In this document: piece after piece, positions 2,243-29,616 of the stretch
Layout: every line of letters starts with the position of its first letter
Numbering within the stretch: the stretch's first letter is position 1
Source: Flavobacteriales bacterium
Lineage (GTDB): Bacteria; Bacteroidota; Bacteroidia; Flavobacteriales; CAJXXR01
Direction of reading: 5' to 3'
DNA: 64,000 nucleotides
Assembly (NCBI GenBank): GCA_025210805.1
Contig: JAOAQX010000026.1
Span: 1-64,000, forward strand
Program-made: the position numbers and the translations under genes
Notes under the pieces: model-generated
Seen by the model: the letters and a program-made list of their open reading frames with translations, nothing else
Database searches by the model: none
What the model was told of the DNA's origin: nothing

Positions 2243-4213
2243 ATGAAGTATCTTTTCCTTCTTATTAGTTCCTTGGTATTAACCGATGTATTATCCCAAG
2301 TAAATCTCGAAACTGTTTCAAATAACATTACGAAACAAGGTTCTGTATATACTGTTCAAAACGGTACTGTGAATGTTAATCAAGCGATTAACCCTGTTGA
2401 AGAAGGGATCATTATTATCCGCAATAGTGGACGACTACGATTTCGTCCAAATGCCGATATTACTTTGGGGAAAATAAAAAGAGAAAATGGGCAAATTGTT
2501 CGTGGTATTGATGGCAAACCTATTGTTGAAAAAAGAGTCATAATAATAGAAGAAAGCAATGCAGGAACATGGGGAGCTGATAACTACAACAACAGTACAG
2601 GTAATCGATTTAACTCGGGAGCTACAGTAAATTTAGAAGGAGTTACATGGATTCAGGCAACAAGTGGAACAAGTCATTTTGATATACGCTCGGGGGCGAA
2701 TGTTCATTTTAGAAATTGCGAAATTATTCTTAAAGGTTCAACAAACTTTCCACACTTTGCCAGTACCAACGTTACCATAGATGGATTAATTATGGACAAT
2801 AGATCTAATGCAACAGCTTTGGAATTTGCTCAAGGTGGCGTACCCAGCTCCATTAAGAACTTAGAACTTATTGATAATAATTCAGGTAGTACCACTAGGC
2901 ATTTTGTTTTCGTAAGTACGCCTGCAGGAACCTATGAAGTAGAAAATCTTCAAGCGCGTAATATTGTTATTTGGAATGCTTCTTCTAACCGAATTATTCA
3001 TCTCATCAACCCTTTATCTAATATGCAAAAAGCTCAGCAAACGGGTGGAAAGCTGAGTATATTTAGAGATTTATCAGTTTCAGCCATAGATCAAAGTGGA
3101 GCAGCTTTAGCTAATATCAAACTAAAAATCCGTAGGAAAAATAGTTCTTTAGCCTATGATCAAGAATTTTCTTTAGACAACATTGGTCAACACAAAGAAC
3201 GATTATTACAATACGATATTAATCACGGTTCTTTTTCTAGAACAAATCATAATCAATATGATATTCAACTACTCAGTTATAACAAAAATATTTATTATAA
3301 TGACTTCACTTTGGACTTAGTAGCGAATCTTAATGGAGAAAATAAAATTGAGAATGTCATGTTAATTGACGATCCCAATATTTCGAAAAACATTACCGAT
3401 GCTGGAAATATATCAGGAATTAGTGTATCACACAATGCAAACAATACTGGAGGAACGATAAATATAACAGATAGCATCAGTTTATGCGACCTCTACGACT
3501 TTCTAAAGCTAGATAAAGTAGTTACCAATGAATTTGAACCTTCACCTTCTACACTGGTAGCAACACCATTGGGTAAAACCATCAATCTTGGAGATTACAA
3601 TATCACCTTTGGAAATAATGGAAAACTCACAAGTTGTGATAAATTTAGTGAACTAACCACCAACGGTACCACTACCCTACCTAACCCAAGTTCCAATATC
3701 GAAATTTCCCTTACCGACAATAACTCTACATACAAACTCATCAAGTTAGAAGGACTTAGCAATGCTAATATTCAAATCCTTGATAATAATAGTAATACTA
3801 CTCTAACAACAACGACAAATACTTCTGGAATTTTTTCATTTGTAACACAAAATAATTCAGACTCTTTAAGTATTTTCATCACAAGAAACGGATATACTAG
3901 TTGGGCTTCAACTTTAGATTTAACCGCTAGCAGTTTCTTTAACTATATTGTTAATCAAGCACCATTAGGGGGAAATATTGGAAATCCTGCAACAGTTGAA
4001 AATCAAACTGAAATGATTTATCTGATCCAAAAAAACATACAAAAATCTCAAGGAATACTCAATGGTGTAAATGGAACAAATGCAACTTTAAATATTTCAA
4101 CAATTAATCAAACAAATAACAACGCAGCAACTCAAGAAAAACAAGAAGAGATTTTAAATAGCATCAAGACAGTACTGCTCAAAACAACAGCAATTAAACA
4201 ACAATTAGAATAA
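2243..4213 (+). CDS. Exported beta-helix-like protein of unknown function
   Basis: A 656-residue protein with an N-terminal signal peptide (about residues 1-19, ending LSQ). Residues about 30-260 show short strand-rich repeats with Asn/Gly turns (GATVNLEGVTW, GANVHFRNCEI, STNVTIDGLIM) typical of right-handed parallel beta-helices. A later stretch near residues 500-560 resembles a carboxypeptidase-regulatory/CnaB-like beta-sandwich. The last about 70 residues are Asn/Gln-rich and predicted helical (QEKQEEILNSIKTVLLK). No catalytic motif was recognised. It lies 23 bases after the preceding gene and 6 bases before the next, so co-transcription is likely. A surface or matrix role is inferred. Confidence 0.7.
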   Translation: MKYLFLLISSLVLTDVLSQVNLETVSNNITKQGSVYTVQNGTVNVNQAINPVEEGIIIIRNSGRLRFRPNADITLGKIKRENGQIVRGIDGKPIVEKRVIIIEESNAGTWGADNYNNSTGNRFNSGATVNLEGVTWIQATSGTSHFDIRSGANVHFRNCEIILKGSTNFPHFASTNVTIDGLIMDNRSNATALEFAQGGVPSSIKNLELIDNNSGSTTRHFVFVSTPAGTYEVENLQARNIVIWNASSNRIIHLINPLSNMQKAQQTGGKLSIFRDLSVSAIDQSGAALANIKLKIRRKNSSLAYDQEFSLDNIGQHKERLLQYDINHGSFSRTNHNQYDIQLLSYNKNIYYNDFTLDLVANLNGENKIENVMLIDDPNISKNITDAGNISGISVSHNANNTGGTINITDSISLCDLYDFLKLDKVVTNEFEPSPSTLVATPLGKTINLGDYNITFGNNGKLTSCDKFSELTTNGTTTLPNPSSNIEISLTDNNSTYKLIKLEGLSNANIQILDNNSNTTLTTTTNTSGIFSFVTQNNSDSLSIFITRNGYTSWASTLDLTASSFFNYIVNQAPLGGNIGNPATVENQTEMIYLIQKNIQKSQGILNGVNGTNATLNISTINQTNNNAATQEKQEEILNSIKTVLLKTTAIKQQLE

Positions 4214-4219
4214 GCAGAT

Positions 4220-5803
4220 ATGAAAAATTTCATCATCCTAATTATCTTTACACTTTACTCATCTTTGGCATTTGCGCAAATCGAACTACCAGCAGGTACC
4301 AACACGAATACATATTCCAATGCATCTGATGGAGAAATTTATAAAGACGAAAACAATCAATACTATATTGGACTTTCGGATGGTAAGCTCATGTCTATTG
4401 GAGATGGGCAACCACAAACTTCAGATTGGACGCATACAGGAAATGCGAATACAACAAACAATAGCTTCCTTGGAACATCCAACGATAGAAAAATGACCTT
4501 AAAATCTAACAATATAAGCGTTTTGGAATTCGGGAGACGCCAAACTTTGGGACTTGTTCAAAACATTCCTGATTACTCCAATAACAACCAATACCTAACA
4601 CATCTATTGGGGCAAGGAGGTATTTCGGCTTTACAATTTCAAGCAAATGGTGCAGATCTCTATAAACCTATGTTTTTTTCTTCAACCAATGGGAGCTTTC
4701 GCTTAAAAGGATCGGCAGGTCGAACTGATTTATTTGAAATAGGTTCTGCAGGACCCGATAATGGAGGGCGTTTAGAATTTATCGTTGGTGATGATGGTGA
4801 CGAACCCATTATATTTAAACGATATGATCATCGAAATAGTAAATCATATAGAGAGTTATTTCGTGTACAGGGTCATGCAAATTCTGCCGATGCTAAAACA
4901 CGTTTTGGAATCAATATCAATACAGGAAAAATATCTCTCGATCCCAATTTTTCTCACAATTATAATGGAACAATTCCTGCAGGAACCCAAAACGCAATAA
5001 CATTAAGAAAACCCAATTCTACCCTTGAAGTAGGTGGTTCTTTTGCCACTGCAATTACAGAAACTACAGGAACTATTACTCTTTCAGAGGATCATCACAC
5101 AGTTATTATTGGTGGAAATCACACCATCAACCTTCCCACAGGAAGTACCTTAAAGGGACGAATCTATATTATCAAAAACCCCAATAGTTTTGCTACAGTG
5201 GTCAATAGCTATAAAGGGATGAATGGAACGACTACCATTAACACAATTAACCCCAATACCGTACTTTGGGTTCAACACGATGGCTCTGACTGGCAACAAA
5301 TAAGTGGGGGAAGTAATCCTAATGGGATCGATAATAACTCAGGGGATATTAAACATGCTGAGTATAGTTTTACTGGAACAATCAATGTCAATACCTCAAC
5401 CCTTACTTTTAAAAACTTTTTTGCAACAGAAATATCCAATGATGGTGCGGTAAGTCGTCCATCAAGTAATGAAATAGAAATAGAGGAAACAGGGCTCTAT
5501 ATCATTAGTTTTAATTCTGCACTTATTCTTGGAAACAATATTAATTATGTAGGATCTAAGTTTATTCTTTACAAAAACGGAAGTGTACTAACCAACGCCA
5601 GTATGGAAGCACAAAACGCTTGGGTAAGAGGTAGAGGAAACAGTAATGATGAAACCTCTATTCACTTTACGACAACCTTAAAGCTTAATGACAATGACAA
5701 ACTCAGAATAGCAACAATTAGGGAAAACACTGTGGAATCTGGGAGTCTTAATGCTCAAGGAAATAGAACATCTCTAACCATCACAAAACTTAAATCTCTA
5801 TGA
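4220..5803 (+). CDS. Exported fibre-like protein with shared N-terminal module and C1q-like tail
   Basis: A 527-residue protein with a signal peptide ending SLAFAQ, then the shared module (IELPAGTNTNTYSNASDGEIY, YYIGLSDGKLMSIG). The middle contains a strand-rich segment (about residues 270-350: TGTITLSEDHHTVII, INLPTGSTLKGRIYIIKN) often seen in bacteroidotal tail-fibre-like proteins. The C-terminal 145 residues resemble a C1q/TNF-type jelly roll, like the tail of the first gene in the window. It overlaps the next gene by four bases (ATGA), so the two are probably translationally coupled. No enzyme motif was seen. The exact role is unknown. Confidence 0.72.
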   Translation: MKNFIILIIFTLYSSLAFAQIELPAGTNTNTYSNASDGEIYKDENNQYYIGLSDGKLMSIGDGQPQTSDWTHTGNANTTNNSFLGTSNDRKMTLKSNNISVLEFGRRQTLGLVQNIPDYSNNNQYLTHLLGQGGISALQFQANGADLYKPMFFSSTNGSFRLKGSAGRTDLFEIGSAGPDNGGRLEFIVGDDGDEPIIFKRYDHRNSKSYRELFRVQGHANSADAKTRFGININTGKISLDPNFSHNYNGTIPAGTQNAITLRKPNSTLEVGGSFATAITETTGTITLSEDHHTVIIGGNHTINLPTGSTLKGRIYIIKNPNSFATVVNSYKGMNGTTTINTINPNTVLWVQHDGSDWQQISGGSNPNGIDNNSGDIKHAEYSFTGTINVNTSTLTFKNFFATEISNDGAVSRPSSNEIEIEETGLYIISFNSALILGNNINYVGSKFILYKNGSVLTNASMEAQNAWVRGRGNSNDETSIHFTTTLKLNDNDKLRIATIRENTVESGSLNAQGNRTSLTITKLKSL

Positions 5804-6468
5804 TAAAATACTCCATACTAAACTTTTTTCTTATTTTTTCGACATTAGTATGCGAAGCTCAAATAGCACTACCAGCTGGTACTAATATCGAAATGTACAA
5901 TTCTGCTTCAGAAGGAGATTTCTACATAGACAATGATAGTAATTTCTATATCGGACTCAGTAATGGAGGTTTAAAAATAATTCCTAAAGAAGACTCAGAA
6001 TCACTACCCACTGGAACGCCTACTATTCCTTTTGAAAACCCCGTGATATGGTTAAGCTCCACTTCTGTCCCTGTAACTTCTAGCTCCTATGAAACAATTA
6101 AATCTTTCACCCTCAAAGGTGATATTTTGCAAGACAAAAACGCCGTGAGAATTACTTGTTGGAGAAGGCGTCAAGGTGGGAATATGCAAATAAATTTCCG
6201 ATATGGTGGACAATCATTCTTCACTTCTGGAAGCCTTGGAAACAACTCTGCTCGTATGGAGTTTATTATATTCTCAAACGGAAATGCGAACTCCCAAAGA
6301 GCTTATATGGACGATGCGAACACAGGTGGCAATGGTCAAAGAACTGGAACATTAAGCATTAATTCAGCGGTTGACCAAACTGTAGAAATTCGTGCCAGAA
6401 GAGCTAGTGGAAGTGGAACTGCTGGTTTTATAGATTTTTGTTCCTCAGAAGCCCTTATTTATGAATAA
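5800..6468 (+). CDS. Exported beta-rich protein, last gene of the surface operon
   Basis: A 222-residue protein whose start overlaps the preceding stop (ATGA). A signal peptide ending LVCEAQ is followed by the shared module (IALPAGTNIEMYNSASEGDFY, FYIGLSNGGLKIIPK). The remaining about 150 residues are beta-rich with many Ser, Gly and Asn (MQINFRYGGQSFFTSGS, TVEIRARRASGSGTAGF) and match no family I can name. Three proteins in one operon sharing the same N-terminal 45 residues but different tails suggests a common docking or anchoring part. That is inference. Confidence 0.7.
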   Translation: MIKYSILNFFLIFSTLVCEAQIALPAGTNIEMYNSASEGDFYIDNDSNFYIGLSNGGLKIIPKEDSESLPTGTPTIPFENPVIWLSSTSVPVTSSSYETIKSFTLKGDILQDKNAVRITCWRRRQGGNMQINFRYGGQSFFTSGSLGNNSARMEFIIFSNGNANSQRAYMDDANTGGNGQRTGTLSINSAVDQTVEIRARRASGSGTAGFIDFCSSEALIYE

Positions 6469-7732: not shown

Positions 7733-8806
7733 ATGCTAGATAAATTAGAGAAAATACACCAACGCTTCATCGAAGTTTCTGATCAGATTGTAGATCCGAA
7801 TATCATTTCGGACATGAAACGCTATGTGGCGCTAAACAAAGAATATAAAGATCTTCAAAAAATAGAAGATGCTTATCAAGAATACAAGCTCTTGGTTTCC
7901 AATATAGCAGAATCGAAAGATATTTTGGCAAACGAAACAGATCCTGAAATGAAGGAAATGGCGAAAATGGAACTCGACGAAGCACTCCCAAGAAAGGAAG
8001 AGATGGATGAAGAAATCAAATGGCTTCTGATTCCAAAAGATCCTGAGGATGCTAAAAATGCTCAAGTAGAAATCCGTGCAGGTACGGGTGGAGATGAAGC
8101 CTCTATTTTTGCTGGAGACCTTTTCCGTATGTACACAAAATATTGCGAAGGAAGAGGATGGAAAATTTCAGTTTCCGATTTTACAGAAGGTACTGCAGGA
8201 GGATATAAAGAAGTTATTTTTGACGTAAGCGGACAAGATGTGTATGGAACCATGAAATATGAATCGGGAGTTCACCGTGTTCAGCGTGTTCCACAAACGG
8301 AAACTCAAGGACGTGTTCACACTTCTGCTGCCACCGTTATTGTGCTTCCAGAAGCCGAAGAATTTGATATCGATATCAAAGAATCTGATCTTCGTGTAGA
8401 TTCTTTCTGTTCGTCTGGTCCTGGAGGTCAGTCTGTAAATACCACTTATTCTGCCATCAGAATTACCCACGTTCCTACAGGAGTTGTGGCTCAGTGTCAG
8501 GATCAAAAATCGAAACTAAAAAACTACGATAAAGCCCTTAAAGTACTGAGAAATCGTATCTACGAAATGGAACTTCAGAAAAAGCTTGAAGCCGAAGCTG
8601 AACATCGTAAATCTTTAGTTTCTTCGGGTGACCGTTCGGCAAAAATTAGAACCTATAACTACCCACAAAGTAGAATTACAGACCACCGAATAGGACTTAC
8701 ACTTTATAGTCTAAATGACTTTATTAATGGAGATATCCAAAAAGTAATCGACGAGCTAACACTAGTAGAAAATACCGAAAGATTAAAAGAAGGTTCTGAT
8801 GAATAA
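7733..8806 (+). CDS. prfA: Peptide chain release factor 1
   Basis: A 357-residue class-I release factor of normal RF1 length. It recognises UAA and UAG stop codons in the ribosomal A site and triggers peptide release. The GGQ catalytic loop is present near residue 230 ([12 protein letters not shown]). The codon-recognition tripeptide is of the PxT type ([10 protein letters not shown]), which separates RF1 from RF2 (SPF). The N-terminal helical domain is complete. It follows purM after 9 bases, and its last 8 bases overlap the start of pyrF, so the three genes are likely one transcript. Confidence 0.96.
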
Positions 8807-24852: not shown

Positions 24853-24987
24853 GTCGTGTTTGGAGGGTACAACGAAAAATTAGGCTATTGCATTTTTTAG
24901 CTTAGACAACAAAATTATTCATTTGTCGTTGTAATTAACAGTCCTTTAATTATAGAGGAGGGTAATTGAAAATATTTGTTTTATACA

Positions 24988-25028
24988 AAAAATCAAAACT
25001 AAATTTTGAAAAAAACATAATGCATAAT
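24988..25028 (+). pseudogene. Ghost leader of a second GG-peptide gene
   Basis: 24988-25026 matches 26593-26630 upstream of the intact peptide gene with only a handful of differences, up to and including ATGCATA. Right after this, the reading frame runs into dispersed-element copy 3 and stops after nine codons. The coding sequence of a former peptide gene in unit A therefore seems to have been replaced or deleted when the element arrived. Confidence 0.65.
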
Positions 25029-25183: not shown

Positions 25184-26320
25184 ATGAAATTTTGGACAAT
25201 ATTTCTTTTTGTATTTCAATTGACTTTTGGGCAAGACAGTATCACCTTCTTAAACAAAATCCCTCTGCTGAAAAATGGGTTCTATTTGCACGATGAGCAC
25301 CATTTTCAAAACTCAGCAAGGCTAATTGATAGCGAACTTCTGAAGTTTTATGTACTTCATAGGAACGTAAAAAATGTGTTTATTGAGATGGGGCATAGTA
25401 CCGCTTATCTTATGAACCAATATCTGGAATCTGGTGAAAACAAATGGTTGTGTAGGTTACTACATGCCAAAGTGGGTGAGAATTTTGTACACTTTGTCAA
25501 AGAGGCAAGAAAACTAAACCTACAAAAAAAGTTTAAATTTTATGGATTAGATGTTTATTCCTTTCATTCGGACTGGAATTATACCATAGATCATATCCTG
25601 AATAAATATGTGGATTCCCTTCCAGAATTCACATATTTCACCAAAGAAATCAAACCGATGATAGTGTACTATGAATCACTTAACTTAAACAATTTCAAAA
25701 CTTTAGAAGATAGTATTGTTAGTCCAAACAAATGTTATAGTTTACACGAAAGATTTAATGTTTTTTTTAACCAAAAGAAGAAATACTTAAAAAATAAAAT
25801 GAATGAACAAGACTTCAAAACCATTGAGTATATATTGTTTTCAGAGGTGGCAAGAAGCCTTGAAGAGGAAAGGACTTTAGAAACAAATAATCAATGGCTA
25901 GATAATGTTCATTATGCAATGGAGAATTTAATACAAAACAATGATAATTGTTTCGCGCAAGTAGGTCAAGCACATACAATGAATTATCAGGGAAGTTTTT
26001 CAAGAATATTAAATGATCTAGATTCGTCGTTTTTTAAGAATAATGTTTTTTTGTGCCACTCGGATTATGTAAATTCTTATCAAAGGATGTATAATGAGCC
26101 GTCTGATTATAAAACTACCAACAACTTTACCCACCAATACAAGAAATACAAAATAGAGAGAAAATTTCGGAGATTTCATAAAAAAGCTAAGACAAACTCG
26201 AAGTACGAGTTTATCCCAATTGGGAGATACAAAAGATTTAAGCATGCAGGTATTTTGTTAATACGATATGACACCCCAGCTGATTCAAGACTAAAATTCT
26301 GTGGTGATGGTGGATGGTAG
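25184..26320 (+). CDS. Exported TraB / erythromycin-esterase-like protein (intact copy A)
   Basis: A 378-residue protein with a short signal peptide (cleavage near FGQ). The layout weakly resembles the TraB/Tiki/EreA/ChaN superfamily: an early YLHDEHHF followed by LLKFYVLHRNVKNVFIEMGHSTAYLMNQYLE, a middle FKFYGLDVYSFHSDWNY, and a late FAQVGQAHTMNY containing a GxxH motif. The C-terminus ends DTPADSRLKFCGDGGW. A diverged paralogue lies at 26854-27998, with a double-glycine peptide gene between them. In enterococci a TraB-family protein (PrgY) dampens the cell's own pheromone peptide; a comparable role here is a guess. Family assignment is by eye only. Confidence 0.6.
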   Translation: MKFWTIFLFVFQLTFGQDSITFLNKIPLLKNGFYLHDEHHFQNSARLIDSELLKFYVLHRNVKNVFIEMGHSTAYLMNQYLESGENKWLCRLLHAKVGENFVHFVKEARKLNLQKKFKFYGLDVYSFHSDWNYTIDHILNKYVDSLPEFTYFTKEIKPMIVYYESLNLNNFKTLEDSIVSPNKCYSLHERFNVFFNQKKKYLKNKMNEQDFKTIEYILFSEVARSLEEERTLETNNQWLDNVHYAMENLIQNNDNCFAQVGQAHTMNYQGSFSRILNDLDSSFFKNNVFLCHSDYVNSYQRMYNEPSDYKTTNNFTHQYKKYKIERKFRRFHKKAKTNSKYEFIPIGRYKRFKHAGILLIRYDTPADSRLKFCGDGGW

Positions 26321-26623
26321 AATGAAACAAACTATTCGATTAAAAAAACATAAATAAATTATAGTTATTTATTCAGCTAACAAAATTAACCATTCATCTA
26401 AAAATCAAAACTTTTAACACAAAAATTTGGTTATTCCTTTTTCTTTTTTTCAATTTAGACAATGTAAATATTTATTTGTCGTTTGTAAATTTCTGTCAAT
26501 CAATTTTAGCGGATTGAAAAAGGAAAATTTGTCGTTGGATCTTTATACGATAGTAGGGAAATATTGTAAATCATTATTATGAACAAATAATCAAAATCAA
26601 AACTGAACTTTGAAACAAACAAA
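26321..26623. other. Upstream region of the GG-peptide gene
   Basis: No ORF. It holds the A/B duplication junction (about 26447-26456) and the decamer ATTTGTCGTT at 26474 and 26527, which also occurs at 24921 in unit A. The leader AAAATCAAAACT precedes the peptide start. The repeated decamer may be a regulatory site. No exact TAnnTTTG box was found. Confidence 0.4.
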
Positions 26624-26788
26624 ATGCATACATTGAGCAATAGCGAAATGGAAAATGTAAAAGGAGGAGCGTATTTGTCAATCGGATGTAGTAGAAAAAA
26701 CTCATGCCGTAGAGCTCATAGAAAAGGTTATTGTAACAGAGCAGGTGTAATTAGAGCACCAAAAGGTGCTTGTACTGGAACAATGTAA
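26624..26788 (+). CDS. Double-glycine leader peptide, candidate cationic bacteriocin or signal
   Basis: A 54-codon gene. The leader is MHTLSNSEMENVKGG, fitting the LSxxEMxxVxGG consensus cut by C39-peptidase ABC exporters. The 39-residue core after the GG starts AYLSIGCSRKNSC and ends PKGACTGTM. It has four Cys (precursor positions 22, 28, 37 and 50), six Arg, three Lys and no Asp or Glu, so it is strongly cationic and could form two disulfides or thioether rings. The gene lies between two secreted TraB/Ere-like paralogues, and a matching leader without a core remains in the upstream unit. No transporter, modification enzyme or obvious immunity gene is in the window. An antimicrobial or signalling function is inferred from the sequence type. 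Confidence 0.75.
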   Translation: MHTLSNSEMENVKGGAYLSIGCSRKNSCRRAHRKGYCNRAGVIRAPKGACTGTM

Positions 26789-26853
26789 ATCTTTCAAAAT
26801 TATGAAACATTCACCCCTACATTAATTTATAAGGGGAATTAAATATATTGAGT

Positions 26854-27998
26854 ATGAGATACTATGTACTAGTAGTGTTGTTTGTTAAGATTTTTGCAAC
26901 TAATGGGCAAGACTCAATTGCATTGATACATAAAGTTTCATTAGAAAAAGATGTCTTTTATTTATCAGATGAATATCACTTTCAAAAATCAGGTAGGGAT
27001 ATTGATATTCAACTTTTGGAATTTTATGTTTTAGACAGAAATGTAAGGAATGTGTTTATCGAATCTGGGCATGTTACAGCTTATATCATTAATCGATATT
27101 TAGAAACAGGCGATGAAAATTTTTTATGTCAACTTGTTCTCTCTAAAACCTATGAGAATTTTGTTTTTTTTCTTAAAAAAGCAAGACAAGTCTATAAAAT
27201 GAAGAAGTTTAAATTTTATGGAATTGATCATTACAGTTTTCATTCTGATTGGAATTACGCCATAAGAGACTTATTAAAAAGAAATATTGACTCAATTCCC
27301 GAATTTAGAAGTTACTTAAATAGGATAGAACCCATTATTTCTGGGTATTATAATAAAATGAGTTTGAATAATTTTAAAACATTAAATAATTCAATAGCAA
27401 AGAGTGAGAATTGTTATAGAATCAAGAAAGATTTCAAGAACTATTTCAGTACAAATAGGGCTTTACTGCAAAAAAAATAAATCATAACGATTTTTTAGAA
27501 TTGAACTATATTATGTTCTCCGATATCACAACCAAAGATGAAGATAGAAGGTTGGATTTGACAAATATGAAATGGTACGAGAATGTTCATTTCACAATGA
27601 AAACTGGAATGACTCAAGACGGGAATTTTTATGGTAAGTTCGTTAAATATCATACACTTAACACGACGAGTTCATTTTCTAGGATATTAAACAATACTCA
27701 GTCTTCAAATTTTTACCGTAAAGTTATCCTTTGTCATTCAGAATATAAAAACTCATTTATAGGCGATAGCAAGGTGCTGCCCGAATTTACTAAAGCAAAT
27801 AACTTCACTTTTTCTGTGCCTAAGAAAAGGGCTAATGAATTATTTAAACGCTTTCACAAAAGGGCAAAAACAAATTCTAAATATGAAATTATTCCGACAG
27901 GACGATTTAAAAAATTTGCAGGTAGATATATCTTACTGATTAAAAATGACACTCCAGCTGATACAAGACTAAAATTCTGTGGTGATGGTGGATGGTAA
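26854..27998 (+). pseudogene. TraB/Ere-like exported protein, copy B, broken by a frameshift
   Basis: Two frames, 26854-27480 and about 27468-27998, together align with the whole of the intact paralogue at 25184. The break is at an A8 run (27470-27477): in the first frame it is followed by TAA at 27478, while the other frame continues KKINHNDFLELNYIMFSD, matching KNKMNEQDFKTIEYILFSE of the paralogue. One more A would restore a protein of nearly the same length. The start is the ATG after a signal peptide ending ATNGQ. The late GxxH motif of copy A (VGQAH) reads FVKYH here, so the copy may also have lost function. Ribosomal -1 slippage, transcriptional slippage, phase variation or a sequencing error remain possible. 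Confidence 0.7.
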
Positions 27999-28321
27999 AA
28001 GAAACAAAGCTACTCAGATTAAAAAAACATAAATAAGCTATAGCTATCCATAACGAATAAAATCAATCATTAACCTAATAATTAAACTTTTAACATAAAA
28101 ATTTTACTATTCCAGTTTATTTTTTTCAATTTAGATGGAGCACCCATCTTATTTGGAAGATTTGAGGCTAAAATGATTAATAGAATTGACAAAAATGATA
28201 CGATATTCATCCGAAATGGAATTTTTAAATTGACTTACGAATAAACAATGAACTTCTAAAGTTTACTTTATATCCAACATCCAATTAACCCGTTGTGCAA
28301 TCAGATTATATGAAATTTTCT
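27999..28321. other. Gene-free stretch after the duplicated module
   Basis: It begins with the 3' flank shared with unit A (GATTAAAAAAACATAAATAA) and the start of what looks like a third unit (TTTTTTCAATTTAGA near 28124). A 23-codon frame at 28173-28244 has no support. Nothing else was recognised. Confidence 0.4.
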
Positions 28322-28765
28322 ATGAAGAGAATAATTTTTACCAATATTTTATTCATTTTACTTTACAGCTGTTCAAATGATAGATATTCCTTGTGTGGTC
28401 TTGGTATAAAATATCCTTATTATTACACCGAACTTTCTTATGAAGGTGAACTATTTGCGATTTCCAAAATTTTCGATAAACAATATATTCCTGTTAAAAA
28501 TGGCACCAATCGCTCTGGGATAATTACCGTTTTTTTTGACATTAATTGCCATGGAAGAACTGGAAATTTTCGATATAAAACATTAAACTTTGATTACCTA
28601 CCCATAGACTTAAACCCAGATATTATAGACCAAATTTTAACAATCACAAAGACATTGGATGATTGGAATCCAGGAGTGAATGAGAAAGGAAACAATGTTA
28701 ATTCCTTTATGTTTTTAACATTTAAAATAAAGGATGGACAACTAATTAATATATTGCCAAAATGA
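28322..28765 (+). CDS. Lipoprotein with TonB C-terminal-like domain
   Basis: A 147-residue protein with a lipoprotein signal (MKRIIFTNILFILLYSC). The rest resembles the C-terminal domain of TonB-type proteins: RSGIITVFFDINCHGRTGNF, then LNPDIIDQILTITKTLDDWNPGVNEKGNNVNSFMFLTFKI. This corresponds to the 'G-vtV-F-V--dG', 'W-Pg---G--V' pattern of that family. An ATG at 28310 (adding MKFS) is an alternative start. It has no N-terminal TonB membrane anchor or proline region, so it is not a full energy transducer. The next gene overlaps by four bases (ATGA). Confidence 0.6.
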   Translation: MKRIIFTNILFILLYSCSNDRYSLCGLGIKYPYYYTELSYEGELFAISKIFDKQYIPVKNGTNRSGIITVFFDINCHGRTGNFRYKTLNFDYLPIDLNPDIIDQILTITKTLDDWNPGVNEKGNNVNSFMFLTFKIKDGQLINILPK

Positions 28766-29616
28766 AAATTATAAAAAGGATACTTAAATTATTAATGGGT
28801 ATTATTATATCTTTCATAATAATACTTACAATATTATACCTTACCTACCCAAAACCCTTTTTCCATTTTGAATTATTAATAGGTAATAAACTTAAATGGC
28901 ATGGGTTAGAACAAAAAGGTGACTATTTTATTAGAAAAGGCCTAAATAGTATAGACGGAGATAAAAGGTTGAAATATGGTGAAATTTATCGTTACGCTTC
29001 AATTCAAGATTTAAAAAATGGAAATTATCAACAAGCTTTTAAACATCTGAACAAAGCAGCTCAAATTGACCCAGAAGTTGATGGATATTTTGGGTGGGTA
29101 CTTTTGTATTATTTCAAAGATTATAAACGTGCCTTATTCCATTTAAAAAAATATAAAGAATATCACAAAGATAATGTCGCATTTGTAGGAGACGATCATG
29201 TTTCTTACGCTATTGGTCTTTGTTACAAAAACTTAAATCAACATGAATTGGCATTAATCAACTTTGATGATGCAATTTCAAGCTTGTTATCTCAATATAC
29301 GGAAGAATGGATCACTCACCAAATGTATTTTCAAAAAGCAAGAACACTTCATTCATTAATGCGTTATGATGAGGCATTAAAATTTTATAATAGTTCTTTA
29401 ATAATTTGGCCCAAATCTTCCGAAACATATTTCTATAAGGCCCTCTTATTTGAAGAAATTAATAAGAAAGGCAAGATGTGTGAATCTTTAAATAAATCTT
29501 ACTCACTCATAAAAGATGGCTATAAAAATATTGATGTTTATATATCATTTTTTGATGAGATTTACGAATTACAGGTTTTAGAAACCCTAAATAATAACTG
29601 TAAAGATGACTATTAA
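28762..29616 (+). CDS. Membrane-anchored TPR protein
   Basis: A 284-residue protein starting inside the stop of the previous gene. One N-terminal membrane segment (LLMGIIISFIIILTILYL) is followed by tetratricopeptide-type repeats from about residue 85 onwards (YASIQDLKNGNYQQAFKHLNKAAQIDP, SYAIGLCYKNLNQHELALINFDDAI, KARTLHSLMRYDEALKFYNSSL, YFYKALLFEEINKKGKMCESLNKSY). TPRs mediate protein contacts. It is translationally coupled to the lipoprotein, so the two products may work together at the envelope; the partner is unknown. Confidence 0.75.
   Translation: MKIIKRILKLLMGIIISFIIILTILYLTYPKPFFHFELLIGNKLKWHGLEQKGDYFIRKGLNSIDGDKRLKYGEIYRYASIQDLKNGNYQQAFKHLNKAAQIDPEVDGYFGWVLLYYFKDYKRALFHLKKYKEYHKDNVAFVGDDHVSYAIGLCYKNLNQHELALINFDDAISSLLSQYTEEWITHQMYFQKARTLHSLMRYDEALKFYNSSLIIWPKSSETYFYKALLFEEINKKGKMCESLNKSYSLIKDGYKNIDVYISFFDEIYELQVLETLNNNCKDDY

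Follow-up and report, generated by a model that had tools for sequence, protein, structure and literature searches.

The open reading frame at positions 26624–26788 of the window (the whole 64,000-nucleotide stretch of Flavobacteriales DNA that was analysed) is probably the surviving part of a GG-leader precursor gene, of the RiPP or bacteriocin type, in a decaying and tandemly duplicated unit of a peptide gene and a hydrolase gene. Since no C39 exporter was found and both genes of the pair look damaged, the encoded peptide more probably represents a relic than a functional antimicrobial. The features concerned are the following.

24956–25026 (+): what is left of the peptide gene in the upstream unit, in frame as KKSKLNFEKNIMH, after which the GG site and core are missing (DNA identity, frame and leader-HMM score)
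25184–26320 (+): Ere1, the first Ere/TIKI-like secreted hydrolase gene, intact, 378 aa, with a signal-peptide-like N-terminus
26579–26623 (+): upstream in-frame stretch MNK*SKSKLNFETNK, which probably once formed the first half of a 30-residue leader (base matches to the homologue, HMM gain)
26624–26788 (+): peptide ORF, GG leader and basic four-Cys core (translation, motif statistics, start context)
26814–26836 (+): hairpin CCCCT...AGGGG in the gap between the peptide gene and Ere2
26854–27998 (+): Ere2, the second Ere/TIKI-like secreted hydrolase gene, about 60 bp 3′ of the peptide gene
27998–28095 (+): opening part of another inter-unit flank copy, made up of 3′ flank and promoter-proximal sequence; similarity fades beyond it

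Translation of the peptide ORF gives 54 residues, comprising a 15-residue leader, MHTLSNSEMENVKGG, and a 39-residue core, AYLSIGCSRKNSCRRAHRKGYCNRAGVIRAPKGACTGTM, with nine Arg/Lys, four Cys and no Asp or Glu, exactly as the earlier note on this DNA had described. The leader has hydrophobic residues at V-4, M-7 and L-12 and GG at −2/−1, as GG leaders require, and the hydrophobic positions −4, −7, −12 and −15 are all retained within its 15 residues. A single copy of the motif is present in the 64 kb, where second-order Markov simulations lead one to expect 0.00 occurrences in a strict form or 0.02 in a relaxed one; chance does not account for it. A still looser form returned no match when 302 kb of unrelated Bacteroidota DNA were scanned. 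The scores against curated families all fall below cut-off (TIGR04149 17.4 bits, cut-off 25; TIGR01847 13.8, cut-off 15.7; Bacteriocin_IIc 12.5, cut-off 27.1), as does that against the leader model L1b (12.4 bits, cut-off 27), and the model L1a gave no match. The ATG at 26624 is preceded by A at −3 and at −6, a favourable context in Flavobacterium (PMC6847099), so that restarted translation at this codon is possible.

The genus and family hold too few genomes to help in a search for relatives. Comparison of the peptide with 396 genomes of the same order, roughly 1.2 Gb, returned 71 matches with E no higher than 1, of which all but a few were weak. A single relative was accepted, in one of the 396 genomes (G026), with an E-value of 0.027 that is weak by itself. 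It lies on contig C25 (JAQWKY010000039.1) at 5154–5318, spans 55 codons and reads MKTLKLSKLSLKKDYVSELSSREMQNVRGG in the leader and RGFLSIRCTKRRSRKTKCFNFLVEE in the core. An independent search of the same 396 genomes with Ere1 found, besides the genome of the window, only G026 (E 3.7e-15), and the Ere-like gene there (3874–4998) follows directly downstream of the peptide gene on the same strand, in the gene order of the window. Two independent searches thus converge on one spot, a coincidence whose chance we estimate, from the 71 weak peptide matches over roughly 1.2 Gb, at roughly 1e-4. The DNA of the window and that of G026 align from window position 26574 onward, with 67.9% identity in 106 columns (E 6e-6). 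Because the same pairing is seen in both places, the peptide and hydrolase genes appear to form a conserved two-gene unit, of which one homologous pair is known outside the genome of the window.

The G026 peptide exceeds the curated cut-offs of NF038153, NF038158 and TIGR04149, with scores of 30.4 bits versus 22 for L1a, 30.2 versus 27 for L1b and 26.6 versus 25 for TIGR04149. Membership of the window peptide in a lineage of GG-leader precursor peptides is thereby supported at the level of sequence. The cores of both peptides carry [YF]LSIxC[ST][RK][RK]. The expectation that homologues would keep both the GG site and the Cys pattern was borne out in part: this one homologue keeps the GG site, and its core is basic and contains Cys, but that core has two Cys, of which only the first (in LSIxC) aligns clearly with the window core, and the four-Cys pattern is not conserved. 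Contig C25 is a grasp-with-spasm cluster (TIGR04192, 288 bits; TIGR04193, 252 bits) holding ATP-grasp and SPASM maturases and two C39 pieces, both truncated.

Several further observations concern contig C25. The two truncated pieces are C39 N-terminal segments and are near-identical (94%), and repeated intergenic blocks of 82–92% identity (5324–5579 and 3569–3829; also 5606–5836 and 8164–8394) precede successive small ORFs for GG peptides. The repeats and C39 pieces give the impression that peptide cassettes are moved or duplicated in one piece.

Wider searches added no second homologous pair. Scanning bacterial genome contigs and viral contigs with the peptide gave no relatives, tblastn of the peptide against plasmids gave only noise, and a scan of genome contigs with the Ere alignment recovered the G026 contig alone. 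Ere homologues from 22 other genomes of the class provided 16 regions (302 kb) in which neither a GG-leader ORF nor a C39 motif was found; since these 16 loci lack a GG peptide, pairing with a peptide is not a general Ere trait. Separately, genome G004 (locus L085, 171–1370) encodes a GG-leader peptide (MDKLQLNKKTVSRLNNQEMQKVHGG, core LCILSTKKKCFIAIGG...) whose neighbours are a LanC-like gene and a secreted protein similar to an aspartyl protease.

The neighbouring protein combines the fold and the 2His/2Glu residues of the Ere/TIKI superfamily. All scores against PF05139 are below the gathering threshold of 26.4 (Ere1 20.4 bits; two homologues 17.3 and 15.7). Among PDB structures the profile of Ere1 matches Bcr135 (2rad/3b55) with an E-value of 6e-7, and in Foldseek the only matches of its model clearly above noise were Bcr135, 2qgm (a second structure of the succinoglycan-biosynthesis type) and EreC; the predicted structure is of low confidence (pLDDT 53.6) and the fold comparison serves as support only. 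Residues E38, H40, E68 and H264 are invariant across three Ere homologues. A TIKI endopeptidase has a 2His/2Glu motif that includes Glu-3900, His-3902 and Glu-3930 (PMC6254334), and the spacing E38-x-H40...E68 in Ere1 is the same. Ere1 is a divergent member of the Ere/TIKI superfamily, putatively secreted on the basis of a signal peptide judged by eye. No homologue found exceeds about 50% identity to the Ere proteins of this genome, and all three paralogues, of which the third lies on contig C3, end in RLKFCGDGGW.

The comparison of the two units in the window points to an ancient tandem duplication. As DNA, their 5′ leader regions are 73% identical in an alignment of 79 columns (E 3.6e-9, against 26552–26630), and the leader remnant of the upstream unit, joined to the leader end of the window peptide, scores 21.5 bits with the leader HMM, a value reached by 61 of 5000 shuffles. 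Downstream of the second unit, 27998–28300 matches 26321–26640 with 66.8% identity (E 1e-28), most strongly to about 28090. Between Ere1 and Ere2, pS is 0.72–0.80, and hence saturated, and pN is 0.31–0.35 on both sides of a frameshift in Ere2. Such values argue that the duplication is old and that purifying selection acted on both hydrolases for a long time. The Ere2 frame is broken by a shift of one base at an A8 run (27470–27477) followed by TAA at 27478–27480, and its second half is open in another frame to 27998; over about 375 codons no other damage is present. As the pS/pN pattern is the same on both sides, the break is best read as recent, phase-variable or an assembly error, and transcriptional slippage, like phase variation or an assembly error, could explain it in place of gene death. 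The 3′ ends of Ere1 and Ere2 with their flanks are 77–85% identical, versus 45–70% in the remaining parts, and the last 21 bases (26297–26317 and 27975–27995) show no difference at all, although the genes are otherwise saturated at synonymous sites, which suggests gene conversion or a conserved junction.

The gap between the peptide gene and Ere2 holds the hairpin listed above, and the corresponding gap in G026 (C25, 4996–5150) likewise holds a GC-rich hairpin. A partial terminator is often found at such a position in bacteriocin operons. A scan for sigma-70 promoters gave a result about equal to that from shuffles. Further 3′ of the units (28295–29616) lies a small lipoprotein-like ORF, without a Pfam or NCBIfam match, that overlaps a gene for a TPR protein.

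A more active role for the duplicated unit is conceivable, if rather doubtful. The unit would then be an unrecognised Flavobacteriales cassette that duplicates as a whole, in which a small basic GG peptide is accompanied by a secreted hydrolase of the Ere/TIKI type, which opens the peptide or cuts it for immunity or processing, and which survives here with a shortened, colicin-V-like leader after loss of its modification half.

The earlier note had called the leader textbook, which it is not for this group, its length being half that of its relatives (25–32 residues, about 30 being typical). The leader-like frame continues 5′ of ATG 26624 as far as a methionine codon at 26579, which places this start exactly 30 codons ahead of the core; TAA interrupts the frame at codon 4 (26588–26590), where the homologue has a leucine codon. 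Of the 45 bases in 26579–26623, 25 match the leader codons of the homologue, as happens in 53 of 20000 shuffles and in one of 2484 intergenic stretches. Adding this stretch raises the leader-HMM score from 16.3 to 19.1 bits (attained by 102 of 5000 shuffles and 3 of 2966 intergenic stretches), that of TIGR04149 from 17.4 to 20.7 bits and that of L1b from 12.4 to 16.9 bits. The evidence that the stretch once coded for leader is moderate and not conclusive (p about 0.001–0.02), and we infer that the TAA probably cut off the first half of an ancestral 30-residue leader.

The conservation of this DNA could instead reflect only a 5′UTR or promoter element, with the 15-residue leader being original and the TAA irrelevant. 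This concerns the start site and may be combined with either functional reading. Between the two units 32 of 36 bases are conserved here, unusually for DNA beside hydrolase genes with saturated synonymous sites, and the flank and hydrolase 3′ end are unusually conserved too. The methionine codon at exactly the 30-codon position, the similarity to true leaders in DNA and HMM comparisons and the leader length of 25–32 residues in relatives speak against it, and we hold a purely regulatory origin to be less probable than loss of a leader half.

The preferred reading of a decayed unit is consistent with the export machinery of the genome, which is 99.91% complete in 34 contigs. GG precursors of Bacteroidales accompany C39 ABC exporters (PMC10352776), and a search for such an exporter had been proposed as a check on the peptide. 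No match to Peptidase_C39 (PF03412) was found in this genome, with a control that was positive in 8 of 14 genomes; the four PF00664 exporters, in open frames of 598–616 residues, are all half-transporters without C39. A second GG-leader peptide was not found in the genome, nor was a GG leader in the 20 kb around the third Ere paralogue. Adjoining the window peptide there are no modifying or immunity genes except the Ere-like genes, one of them broken.

It is on these grounds unlikely that the ORF encodes a working, unmodified microcin-like bacteriocin or signal, made with a restarted 15-residue leader from 26624 and exported by a C39 exporter in unassembled DNA or a mobile element, or by some other exporter. 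Accessory exporters can lie in unassembled DNA, the short leader keeps the C39 recognition pattern behind a start codon in favourable context, and the core ORF is intact with a basic, Cys-containing character common to the homologue. Against this stand the PF03412 result in a genome 99.9% complete, the lack of companion GG peptides and the broken neighbour. The earlier proposal of an exported antimicrobial or signalling peptide therefore stands as to descent from GG precursors, given the G026 homologue, and is probably wrong for the present state, with no exporter found and the partner gene frameshifted. For the window peptide itself, export, disulfides and antimicrobial action are hypothetical.

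Still less probable is a precursor of a modified peptide, a graspetide or radical-SAM RiPP like that of the G026 cluster, whose enzymes would be encoded elsewhere in the genome. The homologue does reside in a grasp-with-spasm cluster, but the window copy has probably lost that half of the leader on which modifying enzymes usually depend, and none of these enzymes is near the gene: no ATP-grasp or SPASM gene was found near the peptide, and no ATP-grasp maturase was recognised by eye among the ORFs of 18–36 kb. A graspetide with side-chain links was rejected because the 39-residue core lacks Asp and Glu, so that side-chain lactone or lactam links cannot form. A chance ORF unrelated to exported peptides, to which the sub-threshold family scores and the absence of relatives from most collections might point, is very improbable in view of the motif expectation of 0.02 per 64 kb, the DNA similarity to the homologue and the shared partner gene in G026.

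As a decayed peptide-hydrolase unit, the locus can be given the following history. An ancestral leader of about 30 residues would have served as the recognition signal for modifying enzymes and for a C39 ABC exporter; through cleavage behind GG, this exporter would have set the basic, Cys-containing core free outside the cell. The hydrolase would have been exported by its own signal peptide, and its conserved 2His/2Glu site may have cleaved an ester or peptide bond, the most plausible substrate being that peptide family, for self-protection or turnover. At present the C39 exporter is not found, the first half of the leader would be lost to the stop codon and Ere2 is frameshifted, and the upstream unit has lost its peptide and has an intact hydrolase. 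Any function retained would probably be an immunity-like one of the hydrolases and not one of the peptide.

Should the pairing be real, secreted Ere/TIKI hydrolases would constitute a partner class for GG-leader peptides in Bacteroidota, their genes could flag small peptide genes missed by callers, and hydrolysis-based self-protection would become a testable idea. For this genome the main value is cautionary, in that a textbook-looking export leader can be a truncated remnant whose exporter is gone.

Among known systems, the class I lanthipeptide-type GG precursors of Flavobacteriales (NF038153, NF038158, TIGR04149) resemble the window peptide in the LSxxEMxxVxGG leader end and in having core Cys, whereas the window peptide has a leader of half the length, scores below the cut-offs and a far more basic core, and neither a modifying enzyme nor a PCAT was found beside it. 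Class II microcins of the colicin V type have a GG leader of 15 residues. The window leader is alike in length and in its GG, and the core is unmodified-looking, but no sequence similarity to these microcins and no exporter genes for the window peptide were found. Grasp-with-spasm clusters (TIGR04192/TIGR04193), as represented by C25, share a homologous peptide gene followed by a homologous Ere-like gene; the window copy differs in having no nearby ATP-grasp or SPASM gene and no acidic residue in the core. Ere homologues also occur in graspetide loci of cluster 575, where a role in modification or resistance has been proposed (Makarova et al. 2022, PMC8939145). There, too, an Ere homologue adjoins a GG peptide system, but cluster 575 is gammaproteobacterial and has ATP-grasp and C39 peptidase, whereas the window holds a Flavobacteriales tandem peptide-hydrolase unit for which an exporter was not found. 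Finally, EreC, Bcr135 and the TIKI endopeptidases resemble the window hydrolases at the level of fold and in their 2His/2Glu residues, whose E-x-H...E spacing is the same; the window hydrolases are set apart by their putative secretion, their sub-threshold match to PF05139 and the C-terminal RLKFCGDGGW common to three copies.
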